Virus record (IMG/VR): IMGVR_UViG_3300031643_000641
Location: 1 to 30,504 of that record
Direction: 5' to 3' (one strand)
Origin: a virus
Length of the DNA stretch: 30,504 bases
Positions 5,674 to 21,366 of this stretch are shown one piece after another (positions within the stretch are counted from its first letter, which is position 1; each line of letters starts with the position of its first letter). The notes beneath the pieces were generated by a model. It saw only the letters and a list, made by a program, of their open reading frames with translations. It was not told the DNA's origin and did not search any database. Made by a program: the position numbers and the translations under genes.

Positions 5674-7923
5674 TTACTCTCCTTGAATCTGAATGGCAAT
5701 ATTGCCAAGCATCAAAAACAACTTCGTAACCTTGACTTCTCCCTCTTTCACAATACTGACTTCTGCAAGCACTTTCACAACTGCTTCCGGCGACAAATTA
5801 AAAACAGATTGAATCAGAGGAGTCGAAACAGAAACGATAACCGCGTCTTTGCGGATGTTTAAGGTTTGCTGTAGCTGAGCGGCTGCTTCCGCATTTACTA
5901 ATGCGTCTTTAGGAATAACATATATTCCTGTTATTTGAGGAGATGCCGAAACCTTAACGATAGCGTCTTTTACAACATTGAAGATTGTTTCAGTAACCGC
6001 TTGCGCAGAAACTTCAACCATTGCGTCTTTACTTATGTTCAAAACTTGTTGTAATTCAAGAAGTGTTAAAGCTTGAACTACTGCGTCTTTATTTATTGGG
6101 TAAATTCCGAAAACTTCACGAGTTGCAGCGGCTTGAATAATAGCGTCTTTGATGATATTGAAAGTTGTTTCCGTATCTAACGATACTAACGTTTCAACTA
6201 CGATGTCTTTACGCACGTTAAAAATGGATTCTAACTCGAAAGTGGCCTGAGCCGTAACAACCGCATCCTTAAAAATTTCAATAATTTGAGCACTAATCTT
6301 TTCAACAACGACATCAGCAAGAGCCTGCACCAAAGCATCTTTATGAATGTTAAACGTGGTTTCCTCTCCATGCGTGGCGCTTCCAGCAACAGCAGCATCC
6401 TTATGAATGTTGTAGATTGTCTGTAGTGTTTTAGTCGCTAAGGCTTCAATAACCGCTTCTTTCGAAATGTTAAAAATAGATTCTAAATTCGAGACAGCTG
6501 AAGCCTTCACTACTGCTTCAACTGGAATGCCTAACTCAAAACTCAAAGCGGTTAAAGCCTTTGCTATGGCTTCTTTCTGGATGTTAAATATAGTTTCCGA
6601 CGCTTTAAGAGCTTGCGAAGTTACGGCAGCATCTTTCTGAATATTATAAGTCGTTTGCAACACTTTTTCCGCCGTAGCCTTCACAACAGCGTCAACATTA
6701 ATCTCATAAGTTTGTCCTTCTAGAACTCCTATAAAGTCATCGAAGGCATCGGTACCTACCAGTTCAGCATTGGTGGATTGAAAGATGTAAACATATGCTA
6801 TATAGGTTGAGAGTGCGTAAGATTCACTGGCTACTAAGTTTCCATCCTCATAAAAAGATATAACACCACCGCTAATAACTATACGCAAAGGTCCAGTAGC
6901 CGCCGACCAAGCTTGGTTATAAAGGTATTCTGTAGCTCCGTCAACTCTTTTTTGCACACGACAAGTGGAAGTAGCTCCAGCCTTAAAAAAACGATACCAA
7001 TTTGCTTCACCATAGGGGTCGGATGCAGTAACTTTAGTTAGGCAAATCATTAGTTGCATATGATCTAAAGTATCCAATTCAACTACCGAAATTTGAAGGT
7101 CGGCTTCACTTAGGTTATGACTATACTTTGTCACTAAACCTGATTGTTTGTGTCCTATAACTTCAGGTCTTGTGACTTCAAGGCGTTGATTAACTTCAGC
7201 TACGGTTGCTCCTACTTCCAGCATATCCCAGAATGTAGTGTCTATGCTGTTATCATCAAAATTATCGTTTATCTTCTCAACAACTACATCAGCAAGAGCC
7301 TGCACCAAAGCATCTTTCGAAATATTATAGATTGTTTCTATTCCTAAATCAGCTAAAGATTTTACAATTACATCTTTCAAAATATTGAATGTGGTTTCGC
7401 TTACTTCAATCGCTTGAGAACTCACAGCAGCATCTTTCTGAATATTATAAGTCGTTTGCAACACTTTTTCCGCCGTAGCCTTCACAACAGCGTCAACATT
7501 AATCTCATAAATTTGTCCACCTACTGCTTCTGCGTAAGCGTCAAACTCATACATGCGTGAACCGGGGGTATTGCGCTTAGAAACAAGTTTAATGTAGCGA
7601 CCGTCCTTCTCAAATGCTCCGCTTTCACTCCAACCCGCAGTATTAAGCACCCCTTCCCAAACAGCATCACCAAAATTTGCTGGGTCATCACTAACGTAAA
7701 CGTATAATCCGACAGCACCCCCAAAAGGAGCAATATCGACATAAACACGAATTTTAGTTATCTTCTTGGTTTCACCCATATCAAAAATAATCCAGTGATA
7801 GCATGTCATTGTATGAGTCCAAAAACTTGCAAGGTCATCATCAATAGTATTCGCTGCATTATATGGTGGACACTCTCCACAGTAACTATGAATCGCCGTA
7901 GGCGTAGTCCATTCAGCAGCCAT
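5674..7923 (-). CDS. Tail fibre: discoidin-like domain, LamG-like domain and twenty 20-residue repeats
   Basis: A 749-residue adhesin-like protein. Residues 1-135 resemble an F5/8 type C (discoidin) domain, with ANTIDDDLASFW, WIIFDMGETKKITKIRVYV and RYIKLVSKRN. Four 20-residue repeats follow (137-216), then a LamG/concanavalin-like beta sandwich (~217-400; FDDNSIDTTFW at its start, YRFFKAGATSTCRVQKRVDG, GPLRIVISGGVISFYEDGNL), then about sixteen more repeats (404-725). The repeat consensus is xTxFNIxKDAVVxAxAxxxxE. GGGAGG precedes the ATG. This architecture suits a long receptor-binding fibre that presents glycan-binding domains. Near-identical DNA copies inside the repeats show recent recombination. 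It has no enzyme motif that I can see. Confidence 0.8.
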   Translation of the reverse strand: MAAEWTTPTAIHSYCGECPPYNAANTIDDDLASFWTHTMTCYHWIIFDMGETKKITKIRVYVDIAPFGGAVGLYVYVSDDPANFGDAVWEGVLNTAGWSESGAFEKDGRYIKLVSKRNTPGSRMYEFDAYAEAVGGQIYEINVDAVVKATAEKVLQTTYNIQKDAAVSSQAIEVSETTFNILKDVIVKSLADLGIETIYNISKDALVQALADVVVEKINDNFDDNSIDTTFWDMLEVGATVAEVNQRLEVTRPEVIGHKQSGLVTKYSHNLSEADLQISVVELDTLDHMQLMICLTKVTASDPYGEANWYRFFKAGATSTCRVQKRVDGATEYLYNQAWSAATGPLRIVISGGVISFYEDGNLVASESYALSTYIAYVYIFQSTNAELVGTDAFDDFIGVLEGQTYEINVDAVVKATAEKVLQTTYNIQKDAAVTSQALKASETIFNIQKEAIAKALTALSFELGIPVEAVVKASAVSNLESIFNISKEAVIEALATKTLQTIYNIHKDAAVAGSATHGEETTFNIHKDALVQALADVVVEKISAQIIEIFKDAVVTAQATFELESIFNVRKDIVVETLVSLDTETTFNIIKDAIIQAAATREVFGIYPINKDAVVQALTLLELQQVLNISKDAMVEVSAQAVTETIFNVVKDAIVKVSASPQITGIYVIPKDALVNAEAAAQLQQTLNIRKDAVIVSVSTPLIQSVFNLSPEAVVKVLAEVSIVKEGEVKVTKLFLMLGNIAIQIQGE
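6626..6709. repeat. 84-bp exact direct repeat, copy 1 (second repeat block of the fibre)
   Basis: Identical base for base to 7427-7510. It encodes the start of a repeat block (INVDAVVKATAEKVLQ plus TTYNIQKDAA). It lies just on the C-terminal side of the LamG-like domain, so the two copies bracket that domain. Confidence 0.85.
7427..7510. repeat. 84-bp exact direct repeat, copy 2 (first repeat block of the fibre)
   Basis: The partner of 6626-6709, offset by 801 bases, which is exactly 267 codons. Recombination between the two copies would remove or add the LamG-like domain without breaking the frame. A second pair (around 6297-6342 and 7272-7317) is nearly identical but has a different offset, so more than one event happened. 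Confidence 0.85.
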
Positions 7924-12495: not shown

Positions 12496-13496
12496 TCGAC
12501 ACCCCGCCGATACATTTCCTCTTCTCCGGCACGAGTTATCGAACGCCCACGAGATGGCATTTCACTCGTAGCTTCGTTGAAGCCTTGAACTGAAGATGTA
12601 GCAGCGTTCATACTACTTGCAAAACTCCACATTGCAACCGCCGCCGCGGCAATAACTGCTAAGCCAACACCAGTCAAAGCCAGAAAAGTCGCATAGGAAA
12701 TATTCAATGAATTTTGAACTAATGTAGCGAAAGAACAGGCAGCCGCATAGACTTTATGGGCTACGGCAGAAGCTATACTTGTTGAAGCGTTAGCCGACTG
12801 AACTGTTGTGTTCACAGCTGTTGCAGCCGTATGCCCAGCTGTAATGGTTGTTAAATAAGATTTGAGGCGGATCCACGTGGAAGTAATCGTTATGACAGAA
12901 AGCATTGTCCTGGCCCATTTCGCACTTTCCTTATCGACTAAGCCCAAGTCTCCAGCTAAGCTGATTACTGCAGTGCTCAAACCAGCAAACGTCATTAACG
13001 TTGATGCTACAGTTCTGATGCTAACAGCTGTAGATTCTGAAGCTGTCTTCACTTCTCCAAGCGAAACCGTAAACTCACGTGATTGAACAACCGCTCCACC
13101 CATGCTAACAGCAGATGCGTTACAAGCCTCTGAAAACTCTGTAAAACTTGCTGCTGAACCCCAAACGCTTGCTTCTACTTCGGCTGCTGCAGAAGCGGCT
13201 TCTCTGAACGCAACGCTTGCTTCGTGGATGGGTGAAACGTCAATTGGCGGGATAGGTGGAACCTCAATGGGTTCAAAAGCGACCCTAATCGGTGTAGCTT
13301 CAACCTCACTTTTTAGATGTGCCGCATCTTCAGCAACTCGATGGATCTCGGCAGTCGCCAAATTTTCTGTTTGAAGAATTATGGGATGACTTGCAACTTC
13401 CGAAGCCATATGTGCAGCGTCAGAAGACACCTTAGCAAATTCAGCACTCACCTCATTATGCGCTGCTATAGTTACAGCTAACTCTCTGAAACTCAT
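12492..13496 (-). CDS. Short tail tape-measure protein
   Basis: A 334-residue, Ala/Ser/Val-rich, largely helical protein directly upstream of the hub gene, the usual place for the tape measure. Two hydrophobic segments, around 155-180 (STLMTFAGLSTAVISLAG) and 265-290 (ALTGVGLAVIAAAAVAMW), match the membrane-active regions of tape measures. By the common rule of ~0.15 nm per residue the tail would be about 50 nm, which is short for a siphovirus. GGAGG lies nine bases before the ATG, and the start overlaps the stop of the gp10-like gene (ATGA). Confidence 0.75.
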   Translation of the reverse strand: MSFRELAVTIAAHNEVSAEFAKVSSDAAHMASEVASHPIILQTENLATAEIHRVAEDAAHLKSEVEATPIRVAFEPIEVPPIPPIDVSPIHEASVAFREAASAAAEVEASVWGSAASFTEFSEACNASAVSMGGAVVQSREFTVSLGEVKTASESTAVSIRTVASTLMTFAGLSTAVISLAGDLGLVDKESAKWARTMLSVITITSTWIRLKSYLTTITAGHTAATAVNTTVQSANASTSIASAVAHKVYAAACSFATLVQNSLNISYATFLALTGVGLAVIAAAAVAMWSFASSMNAATSSVQGFNEATSEMPSRGRSITRAGEEEMYRRGVE

Positions 13497-13861
13497 AACC
13501 CAACCTCCGCTCTGGCAGCGTCTAAAGCATCAAGAATAATCCCTTCAAGACGTGGCAAATGCTGTTGAATAGCAGGATAAAGATAAGGCTGCGCCCTCAT
13601 GCGATGTGTTCCCAGCTCAACGAAGAGTCCATAGGTTGCTTCTGCACCGATTTCAGCAACCCATTCACTAATCTTAGCATAAATTGTACTTCGTAGATAT
13701 CCAGTTCTAACGGGCACAAGTTGACGGGCCAGGGCCTTGACGTCAGCAGCCCAACTTGCTAACTGCATATGGACCTGACGTTGCATGGCAGAATCAAAAT
13801 TATGCATCGCCCTTTGAAACTCTTCTATGCCTTTTACGTCACAGCTTATTTCAATGCTCAA
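13493..13861 (-). CDS. HK97 gp10-like neck / tail-completion protein
   Basis: A 122-residue protein with the family's typical order: an N-terminal IEEFQRAM helix, VPVRTGYLRSTIYAK (the 'P-x-x-T-G-x-L-x-x-S' core, ~49-63), then YGLFVELGTHRMRAQPYLYP (~79-98). It belongs to the HK97 gp10 group that joins head and tail. The start is a TTG overlapping the stop of the frameshifted chaperone extension (TTGA), with GGGAGG upstream. In most siphoviruses this gene precedes the tail tube; here it lies between the chaperone and the tape measure. Confidence 0.85.
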   Translation of the reverse strand: MSIEISCDVKGIEEFQRAMHNFDSAMQRQVHMQLASWAADVKALARQLVPVRTGYLRSTIYAKISEWVAEIGAEATYGLFVELGTHRMRAQPYLYPAIQQHLPRLEGIILDALDAARAEVGL

Positions 13862-14397: not shown

Positions 14398-15282
14398 TTA
14401 GGTTATGAAGAGGTCTCTCGCAACAAAAGGCGCTTTGAGACTAACAAGATCTTCAATGCCTGAGGGCGTAGCAACGTTTTGCCATTTACAATACTTGAAG
14501 GTTGCAGTGTGCTCGCCATTTGCTGGATTGTCGCCAAGTCGGAAGGACAAGCTGAACTCACTATCATTTATTACGTCATCAAACTCTGTTTTGCTTTCAA
14601 ACTCAAACAATAGTTCGCCGAAAATGTTGCGGTGACGTTCCCGCAAATACTTCAGAAGATGCCCATTTGAATTTTGGATAACAGGCACAGCCTTCAAATT
14701 GTTTTCAACATTGAATTTCCAATCCGTCACAGTGCTAACCGCTACCAAGTTTCCGCCGTCCGCATCGCCTTTTTTCACGTAGCTTTCATAATAGGGAACG
14801 GCACCACCATAATCTCCGTAGGTGGCTCCACTGATCTTCGCCGTGCCCAGAGCAACGTCCTTGCCGATGACATCAACTGTTCCTTTTATCACGTCTTCAA
14901 TACTACATTGCATGCTTAACTTGTCAATTCTGCAGCCCGTGTAGAGAAAACTGATGATGTCTGTGGCACTTACCCACAAGCCCTTATAATACAAGAGTTG
15001 AATGCTCAAGCTATTCAATGTTTGAGCATGCTGAATGAAACTTATAGGCGATTCACTGCTTAAGCAATCGCTAATTTTCAACGTCACCCTTCGCAAGCCC
15101 TTACTAATGCTTTGCAGATCCCGCGAACCAACACCTCTAACCTTGATCAACTGAGGATCCAAGAGGGGCTCCACGTTTTGAGTGTTAATGCCAAGCATCG
15201 CTGGAGTATCAGGCGTTTCTCCATAATTTGTCTCTTGCACAAAATAGACGCGGAACTCATGCGTTCCATACGTTTCAACCAT
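14398..15282 (-). CDS. Major tail tube protein
   Basis: A 294-residue protein with the features of phage tail-tube proteins: an N-terminal YFVQETNYGETPDTPAMLG loop motif, a beta-rich body (VTLKISDCLSS, LSIQLLYYKGLW, DKLSMQCSIEDVIKGTVDVI), and a C-terminal strand (GEHTATFKYCKWQN). It polymerises into the tail tube around the tape measure. The start has AGGAGG upstream, and the chaperone genes follow directly. No sheath gene is present, so the tail is non-contractile. Confidence 0.8.
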   Translation of the reverse strand: MVETYGTHEFRVYFVQETNYGETPDTPAMLGINTQNVEPLLDPQLIKVRGVGSRDLQSISKGLRRVTLKISDCLSSESPISFIQHAQTLNSLSIQLLYYKGLWVSATDIISFLYTGCRIDKLSMQCSIEDVIKGTVDVIGKDVALGTAKISGATYGDYGGAVPYYESYVKKGDADGGNLVAVSTVTDWKFNVENNLKAVPVIQNSNGHLLKYLRERHRNIFGELLFEFESKTEFDDVINDSEFSLSFRLGDNPANGEHTATFKYCKWQNVATPSGIEDLVSLKAPFVARDLFIT

Positions 15283-15290
15283 TTTCTTTC

Positions 15291-16247
15291 TTAACCTCCT
15301 AACACTTTTTCAAACATCCATGTTTTGACTATGAACTCGGTGCGCCACAAAAACGGTTTAACCCGCACCTGATCTAAATCCCGAAAACCCACAACATCAC
15401 AATAAGTAATTCCGTTAACCGTGACTGTGCATAAGGCATAATCACAATAAAGCACGGCTGCAGTTGTTCCATCACTTGGGTTTGTTGTTCTTGCGAGAAG
15501 CCAAACATAGCCGTCATCATCGATATAATCCGTCAAATCAGAGGTGAGCGTAATAGTGATTGTTTCATCAGCTCCGCCGATGCCTGTCTGGGCCTCCTCC
15601 CACACTTCATTAACATGATCCCAGACCTTAACCGTAACTCCGTTCCCACTCGGAGCAGTGCCATAACCCTCAAAAGCTAAAACAATTTTCTTAACAACAG
15701 CTTCTTTAGACTCAATCTTCAAGCGGAACAAAACCATGCTGTATTTACCATTTTCAGACTGAGACTTACTATAGCGACTATCATCGCTATACCATAACTT
15801 CTGATATTCCTCAGCCAAAAGCTCAGTCCAGCCTACGCTTCCAGGAGGTAACTCGCTATCCGAAGCAGCATGATAGGCTTTATGAGTGCCCGTTGGAGGC
15901 CCAACACCAACAAAATCGTAACCCGTAACATTAGGCACAGCTCTCTTCTCTCGAATAATACGGTTAATCTCCTCACACAGTTTCTCACGAACATCCCTAT
16001 TGCTAGACCAACCATTTACTTTCAAAAAGCTGAGACGTCTACGATTAATCCCATTAAGACTCAATTTTTGATCGTCAGCACGTTGAAGACCCACAGTCAC
16101 TTGCCCATCATAATTTTTCAAAAGCTCTTGGTCATACCATTCCTTGCTACAATAAACACTTGCCAAGCCACCGTCATCTTGCACGAGATGCATATTTTTA
16201 TCCAGAAGCCGAACAACCGTAGCCACTGGATCCTCAAAGCTAGTCAT
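15291..16247 (-). CDS. Tail terminator / tail-completion protein with an inserted beta-sandwich
   Basis: A 318-residue protein in the tail-terminator position. The N-terminal ~110 residues (VATVVRLLDKNM, then VNGWSSNRDVREKLCEEINRII) and the final ~32 (FRDLDQVRVKPFLWRTEFIV) together make one small alpha/beta domain. Between them, at about 112-275, lies an extra beta-rich domain (SMVLFRLKIES, VVKKIVLAFEGYG, VKVWDHVNEVWEEAQ, YVWLLARTTNPSDG) with the look of a jelly-roll carbohydrate-binding fold. The start overlaps the head-closure stop (TAATG). The insert is likely exposed on the neck surface. Confidence 0.7.
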   Translation of the reverse strand: MTSFEDPVATVVRLLDKNMHLVQDDGGLASVYCSKEWYDQELLKNYDGQVTVGLQRADDQKLSLNGINRRRLSFLKVNGWSSNRDVREKLCEEINRIIREKRAVPNVTGYDFVGVGPPTGTHKAYHAASDSELPPGSVGWTELLAEEYQKLWYSDDSRYSKSQSENGKYSMVLFRLKIESKEAVVKKIVLAFEGYGTAPSGNGVTVKVWDHVNEVWEEAQTGIGGADETITITLTSDLTDYIDDDGYVWLLARTTNPSDGTTAAVLYCDYALCTVTVNGITYCDVVGFRDLDQVRVKPFLWRTEFIVKTWMFEKVLGG

Positions 16248-17629
16248 TAACTAACAAGCCTCCTACACAAAACAGCACAATATTGAGGCTCACCTTTGAA
16301 ACGGAACACTTGAGGCGACCCCACTTCGTAGTATACACCATTACGCATGATCTTGTCATGATGCCTGATTGGAATCAGAGTGTAAACCTTAACAAAATCA
16401 GTCACCATAAAACCGGGCTCGATAACAACTTCATCGGGCAACGCAAGCCTAACAACCGCTTTAATGGTTATGCCTTCACCATAAGAAACAGTCTCGCCAG
16501 ATTGAACAATACTGTAAAGCGTAACGTTTTCGCCCCCAGCATTCAAAACAGGAGTAAAAAGCGTCTTAACAGGCTTATACCGCAAAAGCAAAAGACCCAG
16601 CCACGAAACCGTGATAATCGACTGCTTATTTTCAACAGGGCTCCAATCAACGAATTTGACGCCCCAAAACATGAACTCTTCGTAATGCAAATTCAGGATT
16701 TGCACGCTCAACAAAAGACTTAGCTTATCCTTAACCGCCCTCACAGAGTACAGAATGCCAGATGTCACAGCATCATAATAGTCCGAAGCGGATTTACGTT
16801 TCAGAACATCAATGTAGCCAGCCCAACAAATGCTCGAGTTATAGCCTGAATAATCAGCACTAGCAGCAATCGTGTTGATGAGCTCATAAACTTTTTCGCA
16901 GCTTAAACTCCAACCTTCATAAACATACAAGCCAAGCAAAGCATAAGCAATGCAATCATCATAAATCTCATTCTGAGACAAGCCAACCCGATGCCACGAA
17001 GAGTCAGAAGGATCATAATAAAGCCACAATTTCTCAAAGCCTTCACGGAGAAAACTAACAGCTTTCTCCATCATCGCTTTATATTGACTCTTCGCATCCA
17101 CGTCATAACTGCACAACATCCTAAGACCAATAAGCCCATAGAGACATTCCACGTCCAGCTTAAGATCCCAAACATCGTTAATATCCACGAACCTTGCAAA
17201 ACCGCCATGGGCCTGTTTGTCCTGCATAGTCTTCAGAAAAGTTTTCCCAGCAAGCACAGCAGCATCAAGATAATCAGTGTCGTTTGTCAGCTCGTACGCT
17301 TTCAAAAGACTAGGAACAACACGGCAAGCATCAATGCTATAATAAAACGTGCTGGTTTCGTTGCTTTTGAACCCGCCATAAGCATCTTTCGTGTAGTTTA
17401 TGCACTGCTGAGTTAAAATAAAATCGGCAAGTGAAACGGTTTTGTTATAGATGCTGGTTTTCTGACTTTCAAACTGCTTATCCTGGTAAGCTTCATAAAG
17501 AAAATCTATACTGAAAGAGGCAGCCGCAACACCACGCCCAAACGTAAGATCCACGCCAGACCCAGGAATGTAATAGAAATAAGGCGCATAATCAAGGATA
17601 AACTGCAAATAAGCCTCGAGCGCAGCCAC
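16247..17629 (-). CDS. Head-closure protein fused to an (alpha/alpha)-toroid, glycosidase-like domain
   Basis: A 460-residue fusion. The last ~100 residues (from ~362) have the signature of head-closure / head-tail joining proteins: VVIEPGFMVTDFVKVYTLIP, then DKIMRNGVYYEVGSPQVFRF. The first ~350 are helix-rich with regularly spaced hairpins and loops such as YGGFKSNET, QAHGGFARFVDINDVWDL, LDVECLYGLIGLRML and YDDCIAYALLGLYVYEGW, typical of (alpha/alpha)6 toroids used by glycoside hydrolases, epimerases and lyases. The reaction cannot be named and catalytic residues are not proven; acidic candidates lie in the DVWDLKLDVE region. The GTG start follows the adaptor stop directly, with GGAG upstream. 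Confidence 0.7.
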   Translation of the reverse strand: MAALEAYLQFILDYAPYFYYIPGSGVDLTFGRGVAAASFSIDFLYEAYQDKQFESQKTSIYNKTVSLADFILTQQCINYTKDAYGGFKSNETSTFYYSIDACRVVPSLLKAYELTNDTDYLDAAVLAGKTFLKTMQDKQAHGGFARFVDINDVWDLKLDVECLYGLIGLRMLCSYDVDAKSQYKAMMEKAVSFLREGFEKLWLYYDPSDSSWHRVGLSQNEIYDDCIAYALLGLYVYEGWSLSCEKVYELINTIAASADYSGYNSSICWAGYIDVLKRKSASDYYDAVTSGILYSVRAVKDKLSLLLSVQILNLHYEEFMFWGVKFVDWSPVENKQSIITVSWLGLLLLRYKPVKTLFTPVLNAGGENVTLYSIVQSGETVSYGEGITIKAVVRLALPDEVVIEPGFMVTDFVKVYTLIPIRHHDKIMRNGVYYEVGSPQVFRFKGEPQYCAVLCRRLVS

Positions 17630-17983
17630 TTAAGCCACTCCCACGTACGGTTCAGTTAAGTTTTCAATCATCCGGTCTAATCGACTTGTCAAAATAGAAA
17701 GTGGAGGCACCTGGTTTTGAACCTCAACTCGCAAATCGCCCAAACTAAAACTGCGACCAACAGACGAGCCCCCAGTAACATAACAAAGACAATACAAGGC
17801 CGCTAAAAGCCGAACAGCAGCAGCCTCACCGTCACTGCAATCGCTATAATCAATCGTTAAATCAGTTTCAAGACTGACCTCTCCTGCAGCCTGGGTCAAA
17901 AACGCGGTAACTTTATCGTCAGCTACATCATCAGCTGTAAGATGCATAAGATCTCGGACGCTGTCGGGCGTTACAGAAACCAA
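17630..17983 (-). CDS. Head-tail adaptor (HK97 gp6-like connector)
   Basis: A 117-residue helical protein that starts VTPDSVRDLMHLTADDVADD, the common beginning of gp6-type adaptors, followed by an amphipathic helix (VTAFLTQAAGEVSLETDL), a long central helix (AAAVRLLAALYCLCYVTGG) and a short beta element (FSLGDLRVEVQNQ). Adaptors of this family dock under the portal ring. TTG start with GAGG eight bases upstream. It is first in its transcription segment after a 198-bp gap with terminator-like sequence. Confidence 0.8.
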   Translation of the reverse strand: MVSVTPDSVRDLMHLTADDVADDKVTAFLTQAAGEVSLETDLTIDYSDCSDGEAAAVRLLAALYCLCYVTGGSSVGRSFSLGDLRVEVQNQVPPLSILTSRLDRMIENLTEPYVGVA

Positions 17984-18665: not shown

Positions 18666-19889
18666 TTATGCAGTTTCTCCCGATTCAGCCCCTTCAGATT
18701 CCTGTTCCCACAGCTCCCAACCAAATTTAGTTGCGTTTTTACGGAACTCTTCAGGACGAATCAAGTTTAATTCAGCAGCCTTTAGAATGTCTGCTAAAAC
18801 CACCTCGGGAGTTTCAGGAGTGCCCCAGTTAAGGCGAACCCGAGCCTCCGCGGGATCAAATCCCGCCTGACGCAAAACAGGACTGAAAATATCTCTTTCA
18901 ACCTGACGCTTAACATAACGTTGAATAGGCTTAATTAACATCTCTTGAAGCTCAAGCGCAGCATTAGCTGAAGCCTCAGTAAAGCCGGGCGTACTAAAAA
19001 GACGCGGCAAAGGAGTTTCGCAACCAAGATAAAACTGGTTAAGAATATGCTCAATGTAAAATTCAAAACGTGCCCTAGGGTCTATCGTGACAGGTTTGAT
19101 GTCACCTTTTTTGTTGTAGAAAAGCCAAGCACCCTCTTCAGGACGCTTCTTAATCGCAGCTTCAAACTTCTTTATTGTAGGTTCTTTCGCTCCTTCCAAC
19201 AAGGCTAAAACGTCTGGTCCTGCATACTTCTCAAAAATTTTAGGCAAAATCCTCTCAATCTTACTCTTCATCCAAGCGTACCCTGGCCGCTTATCAGAAT
19301 TAATCGTTAAAGTATGAAGTAAGACCTGCAAAATACCTATGCCGAAACCTGCAGAACCAAGATAATTTATCCGCCAATGAATCACGGCATTCGGGTCAAG
19401 TTCTGTGCCACCATAAGGGCTCGCGCGAAGCTTATACGATTCAATCTTATACGGAACTTTGAGATCTTCGCCAATAACGCCTTGCTCTATCTTGTCAACC
19501 GCGTCTATCGGAAGCCTATGCAGATCCTTGAGGCTTTCAGGCTTAAGTTTAAGCCAAAAATCGTTACCACAGGCAATGAGCGGACGCGCCATGTCACAGA
19601 GCAAACCGTCTAGATTCACGTCTGCATTAAACTTGTCCACAACTTCCTTAGCTTCGTCAACCCTCTCATACTTTTTGTTGGCTGTCGTGTAGAAGCCTAT
19701 GCCAACAGTTGCAGCAGCTAACAAGTCAACACTTGACTTACACGTAGGATCCCGCTCATACAACTTCATAACATCAACAAGCGAAATATTTGGCCTAGTC
19801 TCATAAACGGTTAAGCCCTTAGGGCTCGCACTACCCGAAACACTCCGCCTAACAATAGCCTCATGAATCTTACCCAAAACACTTGACAT
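18666..19889 (-). CDS. Portal protein
   Basis: A 407-residue portal of the HK97 type. The N-terminal half has YERDPTCKSSVDLLAAATVG and the wing-type stretch LLCDMARPLIACGNDFWLKL. Next come RLPIDAVDKIE and DPNAVIHWRINYLGS, the phage portal 'P-x-x-V-x-H-x-R' pattern. The stem/clip region includes FEFYIEHILNQFYLGCETP, LFSTPGFTEASANAALELQE and KRQVERDIFSPVLRQAGF. It forms the dodecameric DNA gate. The ATG follows the winged-helix gene stop directly. It lies downstream of the capsid gene, opposite to the usual portal-protease-capsid order. Confidence 0.9.
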   Translation of the reverse strand: MSSVLGKIHEAIVRRSVSGSASPKGLTVYETRPNISLVDVMKLYERDPTCKSSVDLLAAATVGIGFYTTANKKYERVDEAKEVVDKFNADVNLDGLLCDMARPLIACGNDFWLKLKPESLKDLHRLPIDAVDKIEQGVIGEDLKVPYKIESYKLRASPYGGTELDPNAVIHWRINYLGSAGFGIGILQVLLHTLTINSDKRPGYAWMKSKIERILPKIFEKYAGPDVLALLEGAKEPTIKKFEAAIKKRPEEGAWLFYNKKGDIKPVTIDPRARFEFYIEHILNQFYLGCETPLPRLFSTPGFTEASANAALELQEMLIKPIQRYVKRQVERDIFSPVLRQAGFDPAEARVRLNWGTPETPEVVLADILKAAELNLIRPEEFRKNATKFGWELWEQESEGAESGETA

Positions 19890-20412: not shown

Positions 20413-21366
20413 TTACAACGTTGTCTTTATCCCAGTCATTTTCGCAACTGCATCAGCTCGGAGAACACCTAAGCCAAACCGTGTTGTACCTCGAACGCCG
20501 AATTTGCCTGACTTCACTTCTTCCCAATCTTCAATCGTAACGTCTCTACGAAGTAGCATAGCTGCTGCGATGCGAGTATCAATCGCATAAGCGGTTCCAT
20601 TAGTCACTAAAGTGCTGGCTTGAACGTTCATGCCTAGAACCCGTGTAACAATTCCCTGCTCAATGTTTGTCTGTGCACTAGGCAAATACTGAGCATGGAT
20701 AAACTTGTCATCATTCAACAGTTGATGCAGCTGTGTTTCATGAACCACCATGACTGTTGGACGCCAATCTTCGCCACGCACAGCGTTGTGAAGCTTAAGT
20801 ATAGCAGCCCAATCCATAACCGCATTGCCTTGGGCGATATCATCTCCACCTGCTAAGTCAGCGTCAGCTATTGCCCCGTAAAGATCAAGAACCTTTGTTG
20901 TTTCCCTTTCGCCTAAAGCCCTGCCAGTCTTTTCAACCATGTTATCCATGACGTTCCACGTAGCATCTTCAACAAACTCCCTAGTCCATTCCTCGCTAGA
21001 CTCTGCAAGCTGATCCGTGTGAATGTCAACCGTACTATGCTTTTTGCCACTGAGCCTCGTAACGGCGCCTTCAGCATACTTGTAAGCAACACCTTTCACG
21101 TCCAACGGAAAACGTTCCATAGTCTCAGTCGTTGGCCTAACATTGATTATGTTCCTGCCAATAAGCTCTGGATAAGCAGCTTCCACTAGAGTATCATGCA
21201 TACGCCCAAGGGCGCCAACCATGTCACTGAACAAGCCTTCCTTAACGCCGATCTCCGCGTAACGCTTGAAAAACGGATGCGCAACTGCTTTTTCCTTTAG
21301 ACTCTCGTAGAACTGCTTATGTTCATTGTCTTTCTCCATTAGGCTTTCAAAAAGTTTAGGTTTCAT
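20413..21366 (-). CDS. HK97-fold major capsid protein
   Basis: A 317-residue HK97-type shell protein. The N-terminal ~60 residues are helical and probably form the scaffold/N-arm segment. The conserved spine and E-loop region contains GRNIINVRPTTETMERFPLD. The P-domain/A-domain stretch runs through WTREFVEDATWNVMDNMVEK, MDWAAILKLHNAVRG, TVMVVHETQLHQLLNDD and GIVTRVLGMNVQASTLV. The last strands are FGVRGTTRFGLGVLRADAVA. ATG directly after the cement stop. It is flanked by a cement protein and a protease, as is typical of head modules. Confidence 0.9.
   Translation of the reverse strand: MKPKLFESLMEKDNEHKQFYESLKEKAVAHPFFKRYAEIGVKEGLFSDMVGALGRMHDTLVEAAYPELIGRNIINVRPTTETMERFPLDVKGVAYKYAEGAVTRLSGKKHSTVDIHTDQLAESSEEWTREFVEDATWNVMDNMVEKTGRALGERETTKVLDLYGAIADADLAGGDDIAQGNAVMDWAAILKLHNAVRGEDWRPTVMVVHETQLHQLLNDDKFIHAQYLPSAQTNIEQGIVTRVLGMNVQASTLVTNGTAYAIDTRIAAAMLLRRDVTIEDWEEVKSGKFGVRGTTRFGLGVLRADAVAKMTGIKTTL

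Follow-up and report, generated by a model that had tools for sequence, protein, structure and literature searches.

Gene content of the locus

The window analysed here is the whole 30,504-nt (30.5-kb) virus record IMGVR_UViG_3300031643_000641 from IMG/VR (positions 1 to 30,504). Its minus strand follows the gene order of a tailed virus: capsid protein, portal, adaptor-like protein, fusion protein, a 318-aa protein (P318) and tail tube, and past the tail tube a tail-assembly-chaperone-like (TAC) protein, an HK97 gp10-like protein, a candidate tape measure and a large tail protein. An HK97-fold major capsid protein is encoded at 20413..21366 (PF25209, E 1.7e-6; phrog_267, E 4.8e-14), and the gene at 18666..19889 is a probable portal gene, given its position and a weak Portal_Mu match (E 0.013). 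The 117-aa protein upstream of the fusion (17630..17983) is probably a gp6-like head-tail adaptor, as suggested by a match to phrog_302 (virion structural, E 0.0015) and by its location between the portal gene and the stopper. The tail tube protein lies at 14398..15282 (PF18906, E 3.4e-13) and the HK97 gp10-like tail completion protein at 13493..13861 (PF04883, E 1.6e-4; phrog_5, E 4.3e-19). The candidate tape measure is 334 aa long in the window; in relatives the matching ORF has a median length of 181 aa and is possibly split.

The fusion is a single minus-strand ORF (16247..17629) of 460 codons with a GTG start and zero internal stops. Residues 1-353 (16571..17629) form a toroid of six helical hairpins with a sugar epimerase/glycosidase fold, and residues 354-460 (16250..16570) a head-closure (Hc1/stopper) domain. 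The gene lies between those for the adaptor and the tail terminator/tube, where a stopper gene is expected, and the block adaptor, fusion, P318, tube, TAC and gp10-like is conserved across loci.

P318, encoded downstream (15291..16247, minus strand), is by its position a probable tail terminator, with an inserted beta-sandwich. Pfam GH114_assoc was found in 16 of 33 family members (best 1.2e-3), with the copy in the window under the curated cut-off, and an F5/8-C type domain in 5 of 33. These GH114-associated and galactose-binding-like matches are weak but extend across many members, and the sandwich is probably carbohydrate-binding-like.

Predicted structure of the fusion protein

Searches of Pfam and PDB with the window protein alone gave sub-threshold matches or none, and families were therefore built first. 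AlphaFold2, with a 34-sequence alignment, modelled the whole fusion at pLDDT 88.7 and pTM 0.89. Residues 1-350 form 12 helices in 6 hairpins that close into a toroid, as in the (alpha/alpha)6 toroid superfamily, and the C-terminus is all-beta. Structure comparison (VIA, Foldseek) matched residues 1-359 to (alpha/alpha)6 toroid enzymes with VIA Z scores of 23-28.7 across 286-338 residues. The best match was CPF_2247 (3ren; Z 28.7, 3.2 A, 302 residues), followed by cellobiose 2-epimerases (Z 27-28) and by GH88, GH76 and GH105 enzymes (Z 23-25). CPF_2247 and the N-acylglucosamine/cellobiose 2-epimerases are the closest structures (Z 26-29), but the toroid is only 5-14% identical to them.

The C-terminal 107 residues, folded alone, reached pLDDT 92.6 and adopt the small beta-barrel of neck stoppers. 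Nearly all of the best 34 PDB entries for this domain were phage neck or stopper proteins, the exceptions being a few structural-genomics entries under other names. Z scores were 12.8 for the Pam3 neck, 11.4 for the XM1 neck, 9.1 for SPP1 gp16 and 8.5-8.7 for the lambda neck, and the Pa193 and T4 necks were also matched. When a viral structure library was searched, 49 of the 50 matches listed fell on the stopper-sized part (97-156 alignment columns), and among the matches listed those with informative names were head-tail joining, stopper, neck or connector proteins. The remaining match, F9VHN7, aligned over the toroid. PHROGs profiles agreed, with phrog_939 (head protein) found in 33 of 50 members (best 3.6e-9) and phrog_161 (head closure Hc1) at 1.6e-3. 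In fold, size (~107 aa) and adaptor-to-tube gene position, residues 354-460 thus resemble SPP1 gp16, lambda gpFII, the Pam3 and XM1 necks and Hc1 of PHROGs. Unlike SPP1 gp16, lambda gpFII, Pam3 and XM1, the fusion carries an additional 350-residue N-terminal toroid, and its sequence is too distant for a direct Pfam assignment.

An earlier note, made from the letters of the window, had proposed a six-hairpin toroid in the first ~350 residues and a head-closure domain in the last ~100. Structure prediction and the Foldseek search bore out both proposals, a toroid being present and the C-terminus having the head-closure fold, and the predicted model confirms the two domains and their fusion in one continuous chain.

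Conserved residues and relation to known enzymes

Residue conservation was scored in a 37-member toroid alignment. Every member has D27, Y97, R103, W212, R214, D224, D225, W269, Y272, Y284, Y285, D286, R297, D301, W322 and W343, and conservation of D100 and H213 reaches 97%. In toroid enzymes the active site lies on the face that holds the long loops and the inner-helix N-termini, and D224-D225, D286, R214, W212, D100 and H213 sit in these loops or N-termini. Nine invariant acidic residues lie on this face and two elsewhere (p 0.03), a weak test, being one of five uncorrected tests with a face that we defined ourselves from DSSP.

By sequence, the best profile match of the toroid is the C-terminal domain of D-glucuronyl C5-epimerase: Pfam C5-epim_C was found in 29 of 34 family members (best 1.2e-5), and a PDB sequence-profile search returned the epimerase 6hzz (E 0.037). 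We do not accept the toroid as a D-glucuronyl C5-epimerase, because the aligned catalytic residues differ. The catalytic residues of the human enzyme, which we take to be Glu499/Tyr500, align in the toroid with R146 and F147 (Ala in most members), in an alignment that is itself weak (E 0.04). The GH88/GH105 unsaturated uronyl hydrolases share the toroid fold (Z 24-25) and a similar repeat pattern. They use two catalytic Asp on successive inner helices, whereas the position of the second is not fixed in the toroid: D159, which could correspond to the second Asp of GH88, is only 81% conserved, against 97% for D100. Five members of Pfam GH88, taken from bacterial genomes, aligned weakly with the toroid in hhalign (prob 3.7). 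Seven Bathyarchaeia genomes yielded no GH88 gene, and 31 bacterial genomes, searched for comparison sequences, no GH76 gene. In the N-acylglucosamine/cellobiose 2-epimerases, catalytic His residues lie in the groove. No known family's catalytic residues could be placed on the toroid.

A cell-encoded relative was found in a Bathyarchaeia genome (L162:901-2124), where a 407-aa helical-repeat protein lies amid glycosyltransferase-like genes. It matched the toroid profile with E 1.4e-14 across several repeats (hhalign prob 89), and its Pfam matches were Pec_lyase, GH76 and GH127. As far as sequence and gene surroundings indicate, the host glycan pathways of Bathyarchaeia use a toroid-like fold. 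Descent of the viral toroid from such a cellular protein is a guess.

Distribution and conservation of the fusion

The protein has close relatives on 70 viral contigs, and a search with the toroid profile reached 184 viral contigs. Among reference genomes, 24 of 26 loci were labelled Bathyarchaeota or Crenarchaeota, the remaining two being one from Njordarchaeota and one weak partial bacterial match. A class-wide search found the toroid encoded in 44 of 257 Bathyarchaeia genomes, and since several copies lie on long chromosomal contigs the loci appear to be largely proviruses of Bathyarchaeia. Bathyarchaeia are abundant, almost uncultured sediment archaea. One of the contigs (JAAKEZ010000002, locus L078) is that of the published provirus BATPV1 (PMC11705971).

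Both domains are present in 142 of 148 homologous ORFs (45-91% identity), counted on the loci collected for this comparison, and chance joining is excluded by this conservation of the full fusion. The exceptions are split or broken copies, a toroid without stopper (L094) and a toroid on a different protein (L062). Across ~85 loci, median identity to the window was 62% for the toroid, 48% for the stopper part, 43% for the adaptor, 59% for the tube, 67% for the portal and 68.5% for the capsid protein. In 86 of 88 loci the toroid was more similar to that of the window than was its own stopper part. The toroid is under strong constraint, comparable with that on the tube and capsid proteins, and as it is better kept than the part that plugs the neck, it is not a passenger.

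Receptor-binding modules are usually hypervariable, unlike the conserved toroid, and its constancy fits a structural role too. The main rival explanation is accordingly that the toroid is a former enzyme that has lost its sugar function and now serves as a clamp between the stopper ring and the adaptor or capsid. Its capsid-protein-like conservation, its nearly constant union with the stopper and the failure to map any known catalytic signature all speak for such a clamp; the conserved acidic and aromatic residues in the groove-face loops speak against it, as does the toroid of L062 described below, and on balance we consider a clamp rather unlikely.

A short linker separates the two parts of the fusion, and in L114 toroid and stopper lie in different frames. 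Both facts would suit a protein that is cut apart after translation into an ordinary neck protein and a free toroid, a reading that we regard as very improbable: the L114 split comes down to one small shift of frame, probably an error in the sequence, and 142 ORFs keep the two domains in frame.

In some loci the capsid and portal genes had no detectable counterpart, yet the block from the fusion to the gp10-like gene was kept; some such loci are cut by contig ends. The fusion gene therefore appears to travel with the tail genes.

Loci L082, L083/L167, L165 and L166 were considered as further fusions and rejected, being frameshifted, deleted or recombined remnants. L166 (2130-3170) is a provirus remnant in which toroid residues 1-102 are in frame with part of a large tail protein, a deletion scar. 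The stopper-less toroid L094:503-1822 has a hydrophobic segment ahead of it at the N-terminus, and the short Njordarchaeota contig that carries it otherwise encodes what look like secreted proteins; its H213 and D209 are changed, and it is possibly a cellular cousin.

A toroid on a hub-like tail protein

On one viral contig (L062:7986-11222) the N-terminus of a 1078-aa hub-like tail protein is a toroid of the neck type, 55% identical, which keeps 31 of 31 near-invariant polar and aromatic residues. The gene lies downstream of a candidate tape measure and a Dit-like protein, and the search of this locus showed no copy of the stopper domain. L062 is related to the virus of the window through its terminase, 57% identical, and, by eye, through a counterpart of the gene at 602-2086. 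GC content is even (0.49-0.51) through toroid, hub and flanks, which argues against a chimeric contig. In a tree the L062 branch falls among the neck toroids; it is long and weakly placed. The assignment as a hub follows from gene order, from relatives that adjoin similar tape-measure and Dit-like genes, and from the sequence pattern; direct comparison with the tail protein of the window gave a weak match (E 0.02). The C-terminal third of the protein (~377 aa) has no Pfam match and by eye is helical and toroid-like.

The hub part has relatives in six Bathyarchaeia genomes, and these lack the toroid. In one hub-like protein (L184:3270-6359), from a Bathyarchaeia genome and likely a provirus, a GHL15 glycosyl-hydrolase-like domain lies N-terminal to the hub (E 3.1e-9, above the cut-off), and the hub relatives L181, L182 and L183 carry Laminin_G_3 lectin-like domains C-terminal to it. 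Carbohydrate modules thus occupy, in the kin of this hub, the place that the toroid takes in L062. Together, L062 and L184 favour a movable module, putatively carbohydrate-directed, over neck padding. A structural clamp, for its part, leads one to expect no toroid with all its near-invariant polar residues on a hub-like protein, where the contacts of the neck are not expected. The evidence from L062 is that of a single contig of unsure place in the tree, owing to its long branch, with a hub identified from gene order and weak resemblance.

L062 also bears on whether the toroid acts on the virion at all. It might instead act inside the infected cell or at exit, for example by trimming host glycans at release or by modifying virion glycans, and merely ride on the neck. 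Toroid-like cell-encoded proteins in Bathyarchaeia glycosyltransferase clusters, such as L162, would agree with this. Fusion of the toroid to two different virion proteins, one of the neck and one hub-like, points to a virion-borne role, of which an exit enzyme has no need, and we judge an intracellular or exit function improbable.

Proposed role of the toroid

With modest confidence, we favour as candidate role of the toroid a carbohydrate-directed collar on the stopper of a Bathyarchaeia tailed virus. The fusion gene would encode the head-closure (stopper) protein. Judged from its fold and from the place of its gene, the C-terminal beta-barrel of this protein would sit as a ring, probably hexameric, between tail and adaptor. 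The N-terminal toroid would project off this ring, so that about six copies surround the neck. Six copies are a fair expectation from the hexameric stoppers of long-tailed phages; this geometry, like the outward display, is assumed by analogy with other phages. The likeliest target of the toroid is a carbohydrate shared by these hosts, in their envelope or matrix, which it would bind and possibly also cut or modify; this would help the virion, whose tail is probably short, to settle on or cross the glycan layer. Given the short candidate tape measure, the neck may be within tens of nanometres of the cell surface. The module could serve elsewhere on the virion, as on the hub-like tail protein of L062. 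The neighbouring P318, with its putative beta-sandwich and weak carbohydrate-associated matches, also counts in favour of such a collar.

Binding of carbohydrate is favoured as the more secure function and catalysis as the less secure, both being deduced. The earlier note had envisaged a glycan-degrading or glycan-binding collar. Such a collar gains indirect support from the toroid fold and from the same module on the hub-like protein of L062; no catalytic residues could be matched to a known family. A bolder version, in which a glycan-cleaving enzyme is built into the genome-gating ring, six active toroids digest or reshape the host surface glycan at entry, and the module has jumped between neck and tail tip, is possible, and we hold it only tentatively.

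The presence of the toroid on the neck ring, and in L062 on a tail-tip-like protein, suggests that the virion has a collar that handles carbohydrates. A head-closure ring is usually a minimal plug; here it can bear a large domain of enzyme-like shape, an arrangement that is stable and widespread among viruses of a class that ranks with the most abundant of the uncultured archaea. Little is known of the envelope glycans of Bathyarchaeia, and a conserved viral domain that probably handles them, and that could be produced in E. coli, would be a direct probe. Placement on the neck or on the hub offers a natural test of whether the job of the toroid is host contact.

Comparison with known neck proteins

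In long-tailed phages the stopper is a hexamer that lies between the adaptor, a dodecamer, and the terminator, also a hexamer (PMC12886913). The stopper gp97 of Staphylococcus phage 812 carries an extra outer beta-sandwich domain on its hexameric ring (PMC12886913), and the collar appendages of phi29, twelve trimers of gp12, recognise and digest wall teichoic acid (PMC9863714). Like the fusion, gp97 is a stopper with an added domain, which lies outside the hexameric ring and provides a precedent for outward display; unlike it, the added domain of gp97 is a small beta-sandwich and not an enzyme-like toroid. The fusion resembles phi29 gp12 as a putative glycan-directed protein displayed around the neck; its predicted sugar-enzyme fold and its gene position fit such a collar. 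The gp12 appendages are separate trimeric proteins of a short-tailed phage, whereas the toroid is a domain of the stopper, and gp12 has a different fold.

No stopper chain with a sugar-enzyme-like toroid turned up in the phage collection, the PDB or the viral structure library, and literature searches brought up no head-closure protein or phage neck that bears a toroid or glycosidase domain. The arrangement was earlier put forward as new, which holds for the fusion, unmatched in these libraries, and not for the wider idea, as a glycan-digesting collar (phi29; PMC9863714) and a stopper with an outer domain (phage 812; PMC12886913) are partial precedents. Neck decorations and glycan-digesting collars are known already; what appears new, against the libraries and literature searched, is a 350-residue sugar-enzyme-like toroid within the stopper's own chain.

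Other genes of the window

A tail-side protein of 749 aa (5674-7923) has an F5/8-type (galactose-binding-like) domain and, behind it, numerous short repeats with 'KDAVV.A.A'-like motifs. The 494-aa protein at 602-2086, judged by eye from its sequence, has an apparent ABC-type ATPase domain and a GNAT-like part, which is unusual for a virus. By eye, its counterpart is shared by L062, and the remnant L083 has its second part fused in frame with a broken toroid-stopper gene.
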